Source: Clostridiales bacterium
Lineage (GTDB): Bacteria; Bacillota; Clostridia; Clostridiales; Clostridiaceae
Assembly: GCA_012519155.1 (NCBI GenBank)
Contig: JAAYQS010000044.1
Location: 1 to 34,486, forward strand
Direction: 5' to 3'
Length of the DNA stretch: 34,486 bases
Shown here: one piece after another, positions 5,255-10,416 of the stretch
Numbering within the stretch: position 1 is the stretch's first letter
Layout of the letters: each line of letters begins with the position of its first letter
Translations under genes and position numbers: made by a program
Notes under the pieces: model-generated
The model's database searches: none
Seen by the model: only the letters and a program-made list of their open reading frames with translations
Told to the model about the DNA's origin: nothing

Positions 5255-5290
5255 TATTAAGTAACTTATGCTTTTATCAAATTTATAAGA

Positions 5291-5326
5291 AATCGTCGTA
5301 CTATAAAAATAGTACGACGATTTTTT
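5291..5326 (+). terminator. Strong intrinsic terminator between convergent units
   Basis: Perfect 14-bp stem (5291-5304 with 5309-5322), AAAA loop and a run of T. It ends the guanylate-kinase-like operon and lies just beyond the stop of the convergent PII gene. The reverse strand has only a short T-rich tail (TTTCTT), so it may also act weakly there. Confidence 0.9.
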
Positions 5327-5348
5327 GATTATAATTTATTTTTATATA

Positions 5349-5687
5349 TTAAAGGGCTTTATCTCCTCTTTCTTTTGTACGAATTCTTATACAATCACAT
5401 ACATCAAATAGAAAGATTTTTCCATCTCCAACTTCACCAGTTTGAGTAGTATTTATTATTAAGTCTATGATTTTATCTACTTTTGAATCTTCTAAAACTA
5501 TTTCTATTTTAATTTTTGGAAGTACATTAATTAAAACTTCACTGCTTCTATAGTATTCGGTCCATCCGCCTTGTCTACCACAACCCATTACTTGGGAAAT
5601 TGTTATACCATGAACGTCAGCTTTATTAAGAGCATCTTTAAGCTCTTCAAGTTTTAATGGTCTTATAATTGCTTCTATCTTTTTCAT
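5349..5687 (-). CDS. PII nitrogen regulatory protein lacking Tyr51
   Basis: A 112-residue protein that aligns without gaps to GlnB/GlnK. It starts MKKIEAIIRP and keeps Gln39 (ATP/Mg site), the GDGK box at 87-90, and Arg101 and Arg103. PII proteins sense ATP/ADP and 2-oxoglutarate and, when encoded next to Amt, plug the ammonium channel with the T-loop. In the T-loop the uridylylation residue Tyr51 is Val (SSEVLINVLPK), and residue 85, often Lys, is Glu, so control by uridylylation is not expected. The gene lies 12 nt downstream of the ammonium transporter gene, which supports a GlnK-type role and co-transcription. The Shine-Dalgarno (AGGAGG) lies in the intergenic gap. Confidence 0.92.
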   Translation of the reverse strand: MKKIEAIIRPLKLEELKDALNKADVHGITISQVMGCGRQGGWTEYYRSSEVLINVLPKIKIEIVLEDSKVDKIIDLIINTTQTGEVGDGKIFLFDVCDCIRIRTKERGDKAL

Positions 5688-5699
5688 ATTTAATCCTCC

Positions 5700-6950
5700 T
5701 TAATCAAGGCCCATAAATGATGGGTATGCTGATTCATTATGTTCAGAAATATCTAATCCATTAGCTTCAGCTGCATCTGAAACTCTTATATCCATAAATA
5801 GTTTAATAACTTTAATTATTATAAATGTCATTATAGCTGCTATAGCAATTGTTACAACAATACTTAATATTTGAACTAAGAATAGTTTAATGTCACCATA
5901 AATAAGTCCATTACACATTATATCACCATTTACTGATTGGCTAGCAAATATACCAGTCATAATACCACCATATATACCACCAATACCATGACAACCAAAA
6001 GCATCTAAAGCATCATCATATCCAAATTTCTTTTTAACAGTACCCATAAAGAAATAGCATATTGGGCTTACAAATGCACCAATTATAAGTGCTGACCATA
6101 TAGGTACAAATCCAGCCCCAGGAGTAATAGCAACTAAACCTACTACAGCACCAGTTGCAGCGCCAAGAAGTGTTGGCTTACCATGTTTTATCCATTCAAT
6201 AGCCATCCAAGAAAGTAGAGCAGCTGCAGCAGAAGTATTAGTAGTTAAAAAAGCATGTACTGCAAGGGAATTAGCACCTAAAGCACTTCCTGCATTAAAT
6301 CCAAACCATCCAAACCATAATAATGCAGCACCTAAAAATACAAATGGAATATTATGTGGTTTGTATGATACCATACCATAGCATCTACGTTTTCCAAGTA
6401 ATATACAAGCTACAAGACCTGAAACACCGGAACTAATATGAACAACATTACCACCAGCAAAATCTATTGCACCAAGAGTTTTTAAGAGACCTCCATCTCC
6501 CCAAACCATGTGAGCAAGAGGATAATAAACAAGTAGTGACCAAACAGCAATAAAAATGAATAATGATTTAAATTTCATTCTTCCTATTAAAGAACCTGTA
6601 ATTAATGCACAAGTTATTAATGCAAACATCATTTGGAATGTTGCAAAAAGAGTTTCTGGAATAGTTGAAGCATAGGTATCATTAGGAGCATTAGAAACAC
6701 CGTTAAAGAATAAGTGACTTAAATTTCCTATTATTCCACCGTGATCACTTCCAAATGAAAGAGAATAACCTATTATTATCCATAATACAGAAGCAAGTCC
6801 ACATATGAAGAATGAAGAAAGTATTGTATTTAATACATTTTTCCTTCTAACCATTCCTCCATAAAAGAATGCTAATGCAGGAGTCATTATAAATACTAAT
6901 GCGGCGCATATCATTATAAAACCGCAATCGCCAAAATTAATGTTTTCCAT
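5700..6950 (-). CDS. amt: Ammonium transporter (Amt/MEP/Rh family)
   Basis: A 416-residue multi-pass membrane protein with the typical eleven hydrophobic helices. The two conserved pore histidines are visible in the NVVHISSGV segment and in FGCHGIGGIYGG, and the family signature DFAGGNVVH is present. It imports ammonium or ammonia across the cytoplasmic membrane when nitrogen is scarce. The cytosolic C-terminal tail that contacts PII is present. An AGGAAGG Shine-Dalgarno lies 7 nt before the ATG. The gene leads an amt-PII operon. Expression is probably gated by the upstream leader (6951 to about 7209), with two terminators each overlapped by a hexaloop hairpin. Confidence 0.96.
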   Translation of the reverse strand: MENINFGDCGFIMICAALVFIMTPALAFFYGGMVRRKNVLNTILSSFFICGLASVLWIIIGYSLSFGSDHGGIIGNLSHLFFNGVSNAPNDTYASTIPETLFATFQMMFALITCALITGSLIGRMKFKSLFIFIAVWSLLVYYPLAHMVWGDGGLLKTLGAIDFAGGNVVHISSGVSGLVACILLGKRRCYGMVSYKPHNIPFVFLGAALLWFGWFGFNAGSALGANSLAVHAFLTTNTSAAAALLSWMAIEWIKHGKPTLLGAATGAVVGLVAITPGAGFVPIWSALIIGAFVSPICYFFMGTVKKKFGYDDALDAFGCHGIGGIYGGIMTGIFASQSVNGDIMCNGLIYGDIKLFLVQILSIVVTIAIAAIMTFIIIKVIKLFMDIRVSDAAEANGLDISEHNESAYPSFMGLD

Positions 6951-6985
6951 AAAAAATCCTTCCTTTCGTAAATAAAATTAATAGT

Positions 6986-7029
6986 AAAAAAAGATAGCAT
7001 AAAAAATAATTTAATATTTCTTAGCTATC
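6986..7029 (-). terminator. Leader terminator 2 upstream of amt
   Basis: On the minus strand GATAGC plus TAAGAAATA pairs with TATTTTTTA, a bulged T, and GCTATC, giving a 15-bp stem with one wobble and a TTAAAT loop, followed by seven T. It lies about 35 nt before the amt start codon and would end transcription unless its 5' arm is sequestered by the hexaloop hairpin at 7025-7040. Confidence 0.8.
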
Positions 7030-7040
7030 TTCATTGATAG
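7025..7040 (-). promoter_or_regulatory. Hexaloop hairpin P2, probable ANTAR antiterminator element
   Basis: On the minus strand CTATC-AATGAA-GATAG forms a 5-bp stem with a six-base loop that has A at position 1 and G at position 4. These are the conserved loop positions of ANTAR (AmiR/NasR/EutV) RNA targets. The 3' arm GATAG is also the first five bases of the 5' arm of the terminator at 6986-7029, so the two structures exclude each other. Confidence 0.65.
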
Positions 7041-7064
7041 AAAAACATATATTCTTTTTAATGA

Positions 7065-7113
7065 ATAAAATAAAAAAGACAGTAAATAGAATAATAAATC
7101 CTATATTACTGTC
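7065..7113 (-). terminator. Leader terminator 1 upstream of amt
   Basis: On the minus strand GACAGTAA-T-ATAG pairs with CTATTTACTGTC (12 bp, one bulged T) around an 11-base A/T loop, followed by TTTTTTATTTTATT. Its 5' arm overlaps the hexaloop hairpin at 7110-7123. Confidence 0.75.
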
Positions 7114-7123
7114 ATCATTGACA
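7110..7123 (-). promoter_or_regulatory. Hexaloop hairpin P1, probable ANTAR antiterminator element
   Basis: On the minus strand TGTC-AATGAT-GACA forms a 4-bp stem with a six-base loop, again with A1 and G4. The 3' arm GACA is the start of the 5' arm of terminator 1. The first five loop bases are identical to those in P2. Confidence 0.6.
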
Positions 7124-7145
7124 TATAACTTTATTCATTTATTAA

Positions 7146-7209
7146 ATGCAAAAATATTTACAAAAATAACTTTTAGTGATTTTTAATTAAATATATAAGG
7201 TTTTTGCAT
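7146..7209 (-). repeat. Perfect 9-bp inverted repeat at the 5' end of the amt leader
   Basis: On the minus strand ATGCAAAAA (7209 to 7201) is complementary to TTTTTGCAT (7154 to 7146). The first arm sits exactly where transcription from the promoter at 7216-7244 should begin, so the transcript 5' end could be closed into a stem. Confidence 0.5.
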
Positions 7210-7215
7210 AGTCAT

Positions 7216-7244
7216 ATATTATCTTATAAAGTTTAAATAGTCAA
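7216..7244 (-). promoter_or_regulatory. SigA-type promoter of the amt-PII operon
   Basis: On the minus strand TTGACT (7244 to 7239), 17-nt spacer, TAATAT (7221 to 7216). This predicts a start near 7209 and an untranslated leader of about 260 nt. The 187 nt between this promoter and the valS promoter show nothing else that can be supported. Confidence 0.7.
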
Positions 7245-7431
7245 TAAAAATATGGTAAAAAACGTAAGAATTAAAAAAATAATTTAAACAGTAGTAAAAC
7301 TTAATTTTATAAAATTTAAAGATGAAATAGTTAAGATTGTTAGTTGAAATAAAAGAGATAAGGAATATTTTTTAAAATGTTTAGTATAAATATTTTAAGT
7401 GGTATAAAAAAGCTTAAAGGAAGGGCTAGAT

Positions 7432-7460: not shown

Positions 7461-7484
7461 AGATATAAATTTGTATATTATAAA

Positions 7485-7733
7485 TGCAGTGAAAAAGAGG
7501 AGTAAAAACTGAAAGTATCAAAGAGAGAGGGAATTTGCTGTGATCCCTTATATAGAAGGTTTTGAAGTAGCTTTGGAGCATCTTTGGTGAAATTTTTAGT
7601 AGCTAAAGCCGTTTAAAAAATATTCATTATATATGAATGTATTTTAATCGTTAAAATTTGAGTGCCCATGTATTATGGGAATTAAGGTGGTACCGCGAGC
7701 TTTCGTCCTTTGTTTGGACTTAAGCTCTTTTTT
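7485..7733 (+). promoter_or_regulatory. T-box leader (tRNA-Val sensing) of valS
   Basis: The conserved T-box AAGGTGGTACCGCG is at 7684-7697, and its TGGT can pair with a tRNA ending ACCA. Stem I has AGTA (7501-7504) opposite GAA (7564-7566), the loop-E motif of the specifier loop, joined by AAAACT/GGTTTT. The triplet directly after GAA is GTA (7567-7569), a valine codon that matches the downstream gene. Uncharged tRNA-Val stabilises the antiterminator and lets transcription reach valS. Confidence 0.93.
7697..7733 (+). terminator. T-box regulated terminator
   Basis: GAGCTT..GTCC (7697-7708) pairs with GGAC..AAGCTC (7716-7727), followed by six T. It shares bases with the T-box sequence and so is exclusive with the antiterminator. 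Confidence 0.9.
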
Positions 7734-7782: not shown

Positions 7783-10416
7783 ATGAAAGAATTAGAAAAG
7801 AATTATAATCCTAAAGAATTTGAAGAAAGAATATATAAAAGATGGGAAGAAAAAAAATATTTTACTCCTAAAATTGACAAGAGTAAAAAGCCATATTCAA
7901 TAGTTATGCCACCACCAAACATAACAGGAAAACTTCACTTAGGTCATGCTCTTGATAATGCTCTTCAAGATACTTTAATTAGATTTAAAAGAATGCAAGG
8001 ATATTGCACATTATGGGTTCCTGGAGAAGATCATGCATCAATTGCGACAGAAGTAAAAGTAGCTAATGAACTTGCAAAAAAAGGTTTAGATAAAAGAGAA
8101 ATGGGAAGAGAAGCCTTTTTAAAGGAAGTTCATAATTGGTCAGACGAATATAGAGAAAGAATTAGAACTCAGTTAAAAAAAATGGGGGTATCTGCAGATT
8201 TTACAAGAGAAGCATTTACAATGGACGAAAATCTTGATAAGGCTGTAAAACATGTATTTGTAAAATTATATAATGAAGGTCTTATTTATCAAGGGAATAG
8301 AATCACTAATTGGTGCACTAAGTGTCAAACTGCATTATCTGATGCAGAAATTGAATATGAAGAACAAGATGGATTCTTTTGGCATATAAATTATCCATTG
8401 AAAGATGGTTCTGGATACTTGGAAATAGCAACAACTAGACCAGAAACACTACTTGGTGATACTGCTGTAGCTGTAAATCCTAATGATGATAGATTTAAAG
8501 ATTTAGTAGGAAAAACATTAATATTACCACTTGTAGATAGGGAAATTCCAATAATAGCAGATGAATATGTTGATATGGAATTTGGAACAGGTGCAGTTAA
8601 AATAACACCAGCACATGATCCTAACGATTATCAAGTAGGACTTAGACATAATCTTGCACAAATAAGAATTATGGATGATAAAGGTATAATTAATGAAAAT
8701 GGTGGAAAATATCAAGGTCTTGATAGATATGAAGCAAGAAAGGTTATGGTAGAGGATTTAAAGAAACTTGGACTTTTAGTTAAAATAAAGCCTCATACAC
8801 ATAATGTAGGAACTCATGATAGATGTAAAACTACAGTAGAACCAATTATATCTAAACAATGGTATGTAAAAATGGATGAACTTGCAAAACCAGCTATAGA
8901 AGCTGTAAGAAACAAGAAAACTAAATTTGTACCAGAAAGATTTGAAAAAACTTATTTTAACTGGATGGAAAATATCCAAGACTGGTGTATATCAAGACAA
9001 CTTTGGTGGGGACACAGGATTCCAGTATGGTATTGTAAGGATTGTGGTGAAATTATAGTACAAGAAGAAGCACCAACAGAATGTACTAAATGTCACAGCA
9101 AGAATTTAAAACAAGATGAAGATGTTTTAGATACTTGGTTTTCATCAGCTCTTTGGCCTTTTTCAGTTCTTGGATGGCCAAATAAAACTGAAGATTTAGA
9201 ATATTTCTATCCAACTAATACTCTTGTTACTGGATATGATATTATATTCTTCTGGGTTGCAAGAATGATATTCTCAGGAATTCATAATATGAATGAAACT
9301 CCATTTGAAAATGTCCTAATACATGGACTTATAAGAGATTCACAAGGTAGAAAAATGAGTAAATCTCTTGGAAATGGTGTAGATCCACTTGAGGTTATAG
9401 ATAATTATGGTGCTGATGCTTTAAGATTTATGTTATTAACAGGTAATGCTCCTGGAAATGATTTTAGATATTATCCAGAAAGAGTTGAAGCATCTAGAAA
9501 TTTTGCAAATAAAATATGGAATGCTTCAAGATTCGTTATGATGAATCTTAATAAAGATGTAATGGAAAAATACAAAGACTGCAGAGAATATTCATTAGCA
9601 GATAAATATATTTTATCAAAAATGAACACATTAATTAAAGAAGTTACAGAAAATATGGATAAATTTGAACTTGGAATTGCACTTCAAAAAGTATATGACT
9701 TTATGTGGACTGAATTCTGTGACTGGTATATAGAACTTGCAAAACCAGTATTCTTTAGTGATGATGAAAAAGCTAAGGGAGTAGTTTATAATGTATTATA
9801 CACTGTATTAACAACAGGTCTTAAACTTCTTCATCCAGTAATGCCATTTATTACAGAAGAAATTTATACAACTTTAACAGAAGAAGAAACTATAGTTAAT
9901 GCTGCATGGCCAGAATATGACGAAAGCCTAAAGGATTTAAATGCAGAAAAGAATATGGATTATGTAATAGAAGCTATTAAAGGACTTAGAAATGTTAGAG
10001 CTGAAATGAATGTTGCACCTTCAAGAAAAGCAAAGGTAATATGCCATATTACAGATGAAGCTAAGGAAGCATTTAAAGATGGTGCAAGTTACATGGAAAA
10101 ATTAGCATCTGCATCTGAAGTTACATTTATAAGTGATAAAAATGAAGTGCCTGAAAATGCAGTATCATTAGTTGTTAAGGGTGGAGAATTATTTATGCCA
10201 CTACTTGATTTAGTTGATAAAGAAAAGGAACTTGAAAGATTAAATAAAGAAGTTAAAAAATTAAATTCAGAAATAGAGAGAGTAAACAAAAAGCTTTCAA
10301 ATAAGGGCTTTGTTGATAAGGCACCTGAAGCTGTAGTTAATGGCGAAAAGGAAAAGAGAGATAAATATGTTTCTATGCTTGAAGCTGTTAATGCTAGAAT
10401 AGATGCTTTAAAGTAG
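7783..10416 (+). CDS. valS: Valine--tRNA ligase
   Basis: An 877-residue class I aminoacyl-tRNA synthetase that charges tRNA-Val with valine. The HIGH motif appears as HLGH at 52-55 after PPPNITGK, and KMSKS at 524-528 in GRKMSKSLGNG. The editing (CP1) domain lies between them, with the ATTRPETLLGDTAVAVNP pattern. Two pairs of zinc-ligand-like cysteines are visible (NWCTKCQ, and CKDCG...CTKC). The anticodon-binding domain and a C-terminal coiled coil (about 805-877), typical of ValRS and not of IleRS, complete it. The GGAGG Shine-Dalgarno lies 7 nt upstream. The valine-specific T-box leader confirms the assignment. folC follows after a weak hairpin, and partial readthrough into it is plausible. 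Confidence 0.98.
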   Translation: MKELEKNYNPKEFEERIYKRWEEKKYFTPKIDKSKKPYSIVMPPPNITGKLHLGHALDNALQDTLIRFKRMQGYCTLWVPGEDHASIATEVKVANELAKKGLDKREMGREAFLKEVHNWSDEYRERIRTQLKKMGVSADFTREAFTMDENLDKAVKHVFVKLYNEGLIYQGNRITNWCTKCQTALSDAEIEYEEQDGFFWHINYPLKDGSGYLEIATTRPETLLGDTAVAVNPNDDRFKDLVGKTLILPLVDREIPIIADEYVDMEFGTGAVKITPAHDPNDYQVGLRHNLAQIRIMDDKGIINENGGKYQGLDRYEARKVMVEDLKKLGLLVKIKPHTHNVGTHDRCKTTVEPIISKQWYVKMDELAKPAIEAVRNKKTKFVPERFEKTYFNWMENIQDWCISRQLWWGHRIPVWYCKDCGEIIVQEEAPTECTKCHSKNLKQDEDVLDTWFSSALWPFSVLGWPNKTEDLEYFYPTNTLVTGYDIIFFWVARMIFSGIHNMNETPFENVLIHGLIRDSQGRKMSKSLGNGVDPLEVIDNYGADALRFMLLTGNAPGNDFRYYPERVEASRNFANKIWNASRFVMMNLNKDVMEKYKDCREYSLADKYILSKMNTLIKEVTENMDKFELGIALQKVYDFMWTEFCDWYIELAKPVFFSDDEKAKGVVYNVLYTVLTTGLKLLHPVMPFITEEIYTTLTEEETIVNAAWPEYDESLKDLNAEKNMDYVIEAIKGLRNVRAEMNVAPSRKAKVICHITDEAKEAFKDGASYMEKLASASEVTFISDKNEVPENAVSLVVKGGELFMPLLDLVDKEKELERLNKEVKKLNSEIERVNKKLSNKGFVDKAPEAVVNGEKEKRDKYVSMLEAVNARIDALK

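Follow-up and report, generated by a model that had tools for sequence, protein, structure and literature searches.

The closest described relatives of the leader analysed here are the dual-hexaloop antiterminators of eutP/EutV, amiE/AmiR and nasF/NasR (Ramesh et al. 2012, PMC3369931), which share with it a short stem, a six-base loop with A at position 1 and G at position 4 (A1/G4), sensitive closing pairs and mutual exclusion with a terminator. In the published model, as set out in the available portions of PMC3369931 and PMC8934654, two hexaloops serve each terminator, P1 acts as the recruiter, and the action of a single hexaloop is left open. For EutV, the same portions of PMC3369931 report that deletion of P1 abolishes induction, that linkers measure 5–12 nt, and that induction falls sharply when the linker is 3 or 14 nt long. 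Ramesh et al. searched with both hairpins and, in that text, reported matches before nitrogen genes, including those for ammonium transporters and PII; an actinobacterial survey also uses dual stem loops (PMC8164766, available part). The EutV–RNA structure of Walshe et al. (2022, PMC8934654) redefined the minimal target as one hexaloop. According to the sections available, the ANTAR domains contact one hexaloop, the authors expect that there may be single-hexaloop sites, and work on them is called for.

Several ANTAR elements in one transcription unit are not new, since the available text of PMC3369931 counts at least 13 in six units of Desulfotomaculum acetoxidans. The Enterococcus faecalis eut operon likewise has four ANTAR-controlled terminators (PMC8934654 and PMC3369931, available portions). 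NitR of Clostridium saccharobutylicum is an ANTAR protein capable of antitermination, and it is said to switch on GS/GOGAT cycle genes when nitrogen is limiting (PMC6316151, citing Stutz et al. 2007, as far as its available text goes); the corresponding part of PMC4676874 mentions the nitR antiterminator together with antisense RNA. Among the papers listed in searches of the open-access literature, none dealt with attenuation by a single hexaloop at amt or gln genes, or with gates of this kind in tandem.

Two hexaloop–terminator modules in the amt-PII leader

The window, which is the whole stretch of 34,486 nucleotides analysed here, comes from a Clostridiales bacterium and carries an amt-PII operon on its minus strand. 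The features of the operon and its leader are as follows.

7216..7244, minus strand: candidate promoter TTGACT-17-TAATAT, 9/12 matches, not above chance expectation
7146..7209, minus strand: closed hairpin domain, AT-rich, at the leader's predicted 5' end (MFE and centroid fold)
7110..7123, minus strand: module 1 hexaloop TGTC-AATGAT-GACA, with A1 and G4 (sequence, fold)
7078..7113, minus strand: module 1 terminator stem GACAGTAA..TTACTGTC, then TTTTTT (U-tract 7077-7072)
7025..7040, minus strand: module 2 hexaloop CTATC-AATGAA-GATAG, with A1 and G4 (sequence, fold)
6990..7032, minus strand: module 2 terminator stem GAAGATAGC..GCTATCTTT, then TTTT (U-tract 6989-6986)
6957..6966, minus strand: amt ribosome binding site, read from sequence
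5700..6950, minus strand: amt, ammonium transporter (PF00909, TIGR00836)
5349..5687, minus strand: PII protein gene (PF00543)
5286..5327, strand not assigned: terminator between the PII gene and a convergent downstream gene (symmetric stem; the scan found it on the plus strand)

The sequence confirms the two A1/G4 hexaloops that the original prediction placed at 7123-7110 and 7040-7025 of the minus strand. Sequence and folding likewise bear out the overlap of each with a terminator of its own, the stems now lying at 7113-7078 and 7032-6990. In both modules the 3' arm of the hexaloop is the 5' arm of the terminator, and in module 2 this arm also takes in part of the loop. The module is present twice, as predicted, and each copy is complete: both loops keep A1, A2 and G4, both are closed by C-G, and neither has lost its full stems or its U-tract. 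Each hexaloop stem folds at -3.0 kcal/mol, hexaloop 1 having an alternative 5-bp stem in which A1 pairs with U6, and the terminator stretches of modules 1 and 2 fold at -15.1 and -15.3 kcal/mol (z -6.6 and -5.3). For the entire leader the value is -51.2 kcal/mol (z -4.5), with 0/200 shuffles equally good. With hexaloops near -3 and terminators near -15 kcal/mol, termination would be the default by stability alone.

The promoter predicted at 7216-7244 fared less well. Its 9/12 match is present, but 25 such sites occur in 4 kb on both strands against 25.3 expected, so that the site is no better than chance and the amt-PII start site is uncertain. In Rfam the leader has no match at the gathering score, and the region 6900-7300 yields two lncRNA matches, both below threshold. 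The sole match in the window is a T-box leader (RF00230, 135 bits, 7480-7713, plus strand), which lies upstream of the amt leader and ahead of a divergent valS-like gene (7783-10416).

Compared with the dual-hexaloop definition of an ANTAR target, the window modules have the A1/G4 loop and the terminator overlap but lack a P1 just upstream; no P1 hexaloop was found within 60 nt upstream of either. We considered the two window hexaloops as a canonical P1-P2 pair and rejected this, their linker being 69 nt. The leader thus differs from the dual-hexaloop systems in having one hexaloop per terminator, no P1 at 5–12 nt, and two units in series. Whereas the E. faecalis eut terminators stand before different genes and use dual hexaloops, as described in the available portions of the papers cited above, the window has two terminators before one gene, each with a single hexaloop. 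The anatomy of the modules fits the minimal single-hexaloop ANTAR target, with putative binding by NitR. Walshe et al. (available sections) expect single sites where the time limit set by the polymerase is absent; here, by contrast, single hexaloops sit directly on terminators.

A NitR-like protein and its candidate targets

The original prediction tied the leader to ANTAR regulation, and a search of the genome (2.72 Mb, 243 contigs, 99% complete) found one ANTAR protein, a NitR-like 189-aa ORF immediately 3' of glnA. The genome thus encodes an ANTAR protein alongside glnA, one of the marks of a NitR regulon. The ORF scores 57.5 bits for ANTAR and 22.1 bits for a receiver-like domain, the latter under the cut-off of 30.2. 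Receiver domains usually start with an acidic pair; that of this NitR does not, which makes phosphorylation doubtful. A PDB sequence search with the protein returned a putative antiterminator (1s8n), 6wsh, AmiR (1qo0) and the nitrate regulatory protein 4akk (E 0.0075).

The entry 6wsh is EutV, whose RNA-contacting residues are given as R142, K143, K147, K149, E160 and Y164 (PMC8934654, available portions). In the PDB alignment, with its chain numbering read as shifted by two, this NitR keeps K143, K149 and E160, has R for K147, and carries I at R142 and H at Y164; AmiR likewise has H at position 164 in the same alignment. Among the other ANTAR proteins of the genus (26/30 extracted), R142, K143, K149 and E160 are kept, position 147 is K or R, and position 164 is F or Y.

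Similar modules stand at other nitrogen loci of this genome, where 150 of 4361 first-look candidates were scored. Single modules precede glnA-nitR (GAAC-AAAGGT-GTTT, terminator -14.8 kcal/mol), the divergent glnN encoding a type III glutamine synthetase (CAGC-AAAGGC-GCTG, -25.5) and an amino-acid permease gene (TTTAAC-AAAGGT-GTTAAG, -16.5). A second ammonium transporter gene, amt2, is preceded by two serial modules, AACAC-ACTGGC-GTGTT and CAC-ATTGGC-GTG, which are spaced 82 nt and lie between glnN and the amt2 start codon; that glnN and amt2 are neighbours is deduced from contigs C66 and C11, whose ends are identical in sequence. The targets found, at least five, thus have two gates at each amt operon and one at glnA-nitR, glnN and the permease. 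With the sole ANTAR protein of the genome encoded beside glnA and similar modules at these other nitrogen genes, the predicted ANTAR link is well supported.

Covariance-model scores rank these sites unevenly. A model built without the genome's own sequences (R2) gave seven matches in it. Five are modules, at the permease (E 5.4e-4), at glnA (0.010), window module 1 (0.08), the second of the amt2 pair (2.2) and window module 2 (4.7), and two are plain terminators (0.034 and 1.8). Both plain terminators are gene-end terminators by eye and each outscores window module 2, and glnN is not among the R2 matches listed for the genome. Because module 2 is weak with R2, its anatomy and place support it more than its score.

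Across 67 genomes of the genus, the best match to model R1 reached E<0.005 in 41/52 genomes with an ANTAR gene and 3/15 without (Fisher p 5.5e-5), and the mean number of matches was 4.4 against 1.5; this association is uncorrected for kinship, several of the genomes are not complete, and some of those tested contributed sequences to R1. Among the ANTAR-less genomes, one that is 90% complete (G052) has a module at amt (L187) and one that is 70% complete (G061) has a G1 variant (L196), and the amt leaders of three others (G041, G062, G064; L168-L172, L182) showed no module. By hand count, at least 20 genomes, this one included, have a match on the strand of the ANTAR gene, about 1.75–2.05 kb ahead of the ANTAR domain, which is the place of the glnA leader as read in this genome.

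One hexaloop per terminator in the amt leaders of relatives

We scanned 230 amt leaders, reduced to 193 non-redundant ones such that no two share a 60-mer, near-identical sister species remaining. They derive from 108/110 loci, from further genus matches (59/69 fetched, 58 usable), and from 60/75 further family matches with three new loci; the genome's own amt2 was left out because it was added only after its two modules had been seen. The module finder required a C-G closing pair, a stem of at least 3 bp and a terminator at least as stable as -9 kcal/mol, and was run with all 16 letter pairs at loop positions 1 and 4. Modules with A1/G4 occur in 89/193 leaders and with G1/G4 in 15, and each of the other 14 letter pairs gave 0-4; two separated modules were found with the A/G pair only. 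A letter-free scan at stricter thresholds (stem of at least 4 bp, terminator -12 kcal/mol or better) returned 92 modules, with A (72) or G (14) at position 1, A at position 2 in 82, G at position 4 in 83 and a closing C-G in 82. Related amt leaders thus keep, as predicted, both the A1/G4 loop and its overlap with a terminator. The breadth of this conservation is limited, other branches of the family having the module in only 7/52 non-redundant leaders.

Both helices covary in an alignment of 57 modules, obtained from 93 of which 73 passed a length and identity filter, six were dropped by hand (including both of a Ruminococcus sp., L130) and near-duplicates were removed. The hexaloop helix shows 82 cells changed on both sides against 25.9 in shuffles and the terminator helix 100 against 29.7, with covariation scores of 0.713 (at most 0.195 with slid partners) and 0.788 (at most 0.219), respectively. 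The middle strand covaries with both of its partners, as is expected of mutually exclusive helices. The percentages paired, which selection by the finder inflates, and those of A6 and G9 partly reflect its requirement for both helices and A1/G4; for the 57-row alignment it required nothing of pair diversity, A7 or the closing C-G.

These data bear on whether the window simply holds ordinary tandem terminators, ending antisense transcripts for example, with hexaloops by chance. AT-rich sequence would favour such coincidence and plain terminators can score with the model. We nevertheless consider it highly improbable, given a count of 89/193 for A/G against 0-4 for fourteen letter pairs (15 for G/G) and hexaloop stems that covary with terminators across relatives.

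Two variants lie beside the main class. Loops with G1, such as GAAC-GACGAC-GTTC, occur in amt leaders including L042 and L144 and likely account for many of the 15 leaders counted as G1/G4. In the amt leader of Clostridium bornimense (L067), the 5' arm of the terminator includes the 5' arm and loop of the hexaloop, GTGGCAAAGA..TCTTTGCCAC, a geometry that the module finder missed.

The original prediction took two hexaloops to one terminator as the usual arrangement. This fails for the present gene class, in which 87/89 module-bearing amt leaders have a single hexaloop–terminator module. P1-like A1/G4 hairpins (linker 3–20 nt, stem of at least 4 bp) precede the module in 3/89 of these leaders, which is no enrichment over the 0-7 for other letter pairs. 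A look for hidden P1 hairpins in other leaders gave five candidates, all weak. Those of L040, L047, L049 and L143 lie, by eye, just upstream of the -10 box, and would escape transcription. A eut locus of the same genus served as a positive control, with EutP, a response regulator with ANTAR, a kinase, EutA, EutB and EutC identified by Pfam. Its 20-kb stretch holds four modules: the three on the eut strand each have an A1/G4 P1 of 6–7 bp at a linker of 3–10 nt, and the fourth, on the opposite strand and with a closing pair other than C-G, has none.

In the amt class the hexaloop often sits directly behind the promoter, a further difference from the dual-hexaloop systems. The 87 single-module leaders contain 43 strong promoter-like sites (11 or 12 matches), of which 37 lie 8–30 nt upstream of loop A1, with 25 of these at 10–13 nt; for random positions, 200 draws averaged 3.5 and never exceeded 10. 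Such a site 8–30 nt upstream of the module is found in 35/87 leaders, and the others offer no clear start. If transcription begins about 7 nt past such a -10 box, the stem of the hexaloop would be transcribed first, leaving no room for P1. These observations suggest that targets in amt leaders ordinarily have a single hexaloop for each terminator and no recruiting P1. Because P1 is absent, the eut control keeps it and EutV needs it, the single-hexaloop class does depart in its anatomy from dual-hexaloop ANTAR targets.

Tandem modules and probable serial control

The tandem form is rare. Just 2/193 leaders have it, that of the window and L130, and amt2 is a third case, found apart. L130, whose start codon was corrected before counting, carries GGC-AAAGAG-GCC and TGCAC-AATGGG-GTGCA, 52 nt apart, the first directly behind a TTGACA-TATAAT promoter. 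Conservation of the tandem form in relatives did not hold: the nearest ones show a single module at amt, and in the closest of all, Clostridium sp. MSJ-8 (Amt 86% identical), its terminator is stronger. An identical 21-nt repeat, CATTTAAATAATTTATATATA, stands ahead of each amt2 module (L201 1-268, minus strand), as though a stretch of some 82 nt had been duplicated at amt2; the two window modules have little in common beyond the motif. Doubling probably arose more than once.

We considered weakness of the individual terminators as a reason for doubling. The six tandem terminators do fold less stably than the 87 of single modules (median -22.4 kcal/mol; Mann-Whitney p 0.001), a post hoc comparison on three loci. 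The explanation is not supported, since the single terminators of glnA and the permease in this genome are equally weak, that of glnN being stronger.

From the sequence, the leader probably contains two serial NitR-controlled gates, each relieved by NitR on one hexaloop, and we infer binding, termination, signal and serial effect alike. With the regulator inactive, both terminators, far more stable than the hexaloops, would form, and transcription would stop at about 7072 or at 6986. When nitrogen is limiting, the NitR-like protein whose gene follows glnA would bind the A1/G4 loop as it emerges and keep the hexaloop closed, so that RNA polymerase could pass. Expression of amt-PII would then need both gates opened. 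Doubling of the gate at both amt operons would make these tighter, or more steeply NitR-dependent, than the single-gate glnA and glnN. Against this reading stand the single module at amt in the nearest relatives, the low R2 score of module 2, the two EutV contacts that differ in this NitR, and the amt module of the ANTAR-less G052.

The main rival, which we regard as unlikely, is one distributed dual-hexaloop switch in which hexaloop 1 serves as the recruiting P1 and hexaloop 2 as P2, NitR being passed on cooperatively. The available portions of PMC8934654 would accommodate it, as EutV binds hexaloops singly and P1 is proposed as recruiter. The window and amt2 also have no promoter-like site of at least 9 matches 8–30 nt upstream of a module, against the 35/87 single-module leaders with a strong one. 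What argues for separate gates is that 69 nt and a whole terminator lie between the window hexaloops, compared with the EutV linkers of 5–12 nt (PMC3369931, available portions); that module 1 has a terminator of its own, needless for a recruiting hairpin; and that single modules are commonest, in 87/89 module-bearing leaders.

Rather less probable still is that only one gate is active, the other module being a decayed or nearly constitutive copy. The nearest relative manages with one strong module (-28.9 kcal/mol) and module 2 is weak by R2 (E 4.7), as such decay would have it, but the conserved loop letters A1, A2 and G4, the closing C-G, the stems and the U-tracts are intact in both modules, and their terminator energies are similar.

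Behind the two-gate reading stands a broader one, which we hold more tentatively and short of calling it probable. For clostridial NitR a lone hexaloop, in many cases at the extreme 5' end of the RNA, may be enough, with promoter proximity or NitR itself replacing P1, and the resulting modular unit may be stacked at both amt operons to sharpen control. The loss of EutV induction on deletion of P1 counts against the two-gate reading too, since it implies that a single hexaloop may not suffice.

The leader would thus be a variant of ANTAR attenuation, one that bears on why two hexaloops would be needed. Two-hairpin searches would overlook the single-hexaloop class. Because it supplies many natural single-hexaloop attenuators on nitrogen genes, from a genus that also has a canonical dual-hexaloop eut locus, the class makes the question of single-hexaloop action directly testable, and the tandem leaders offer a natural test of how serial attenuators combine.
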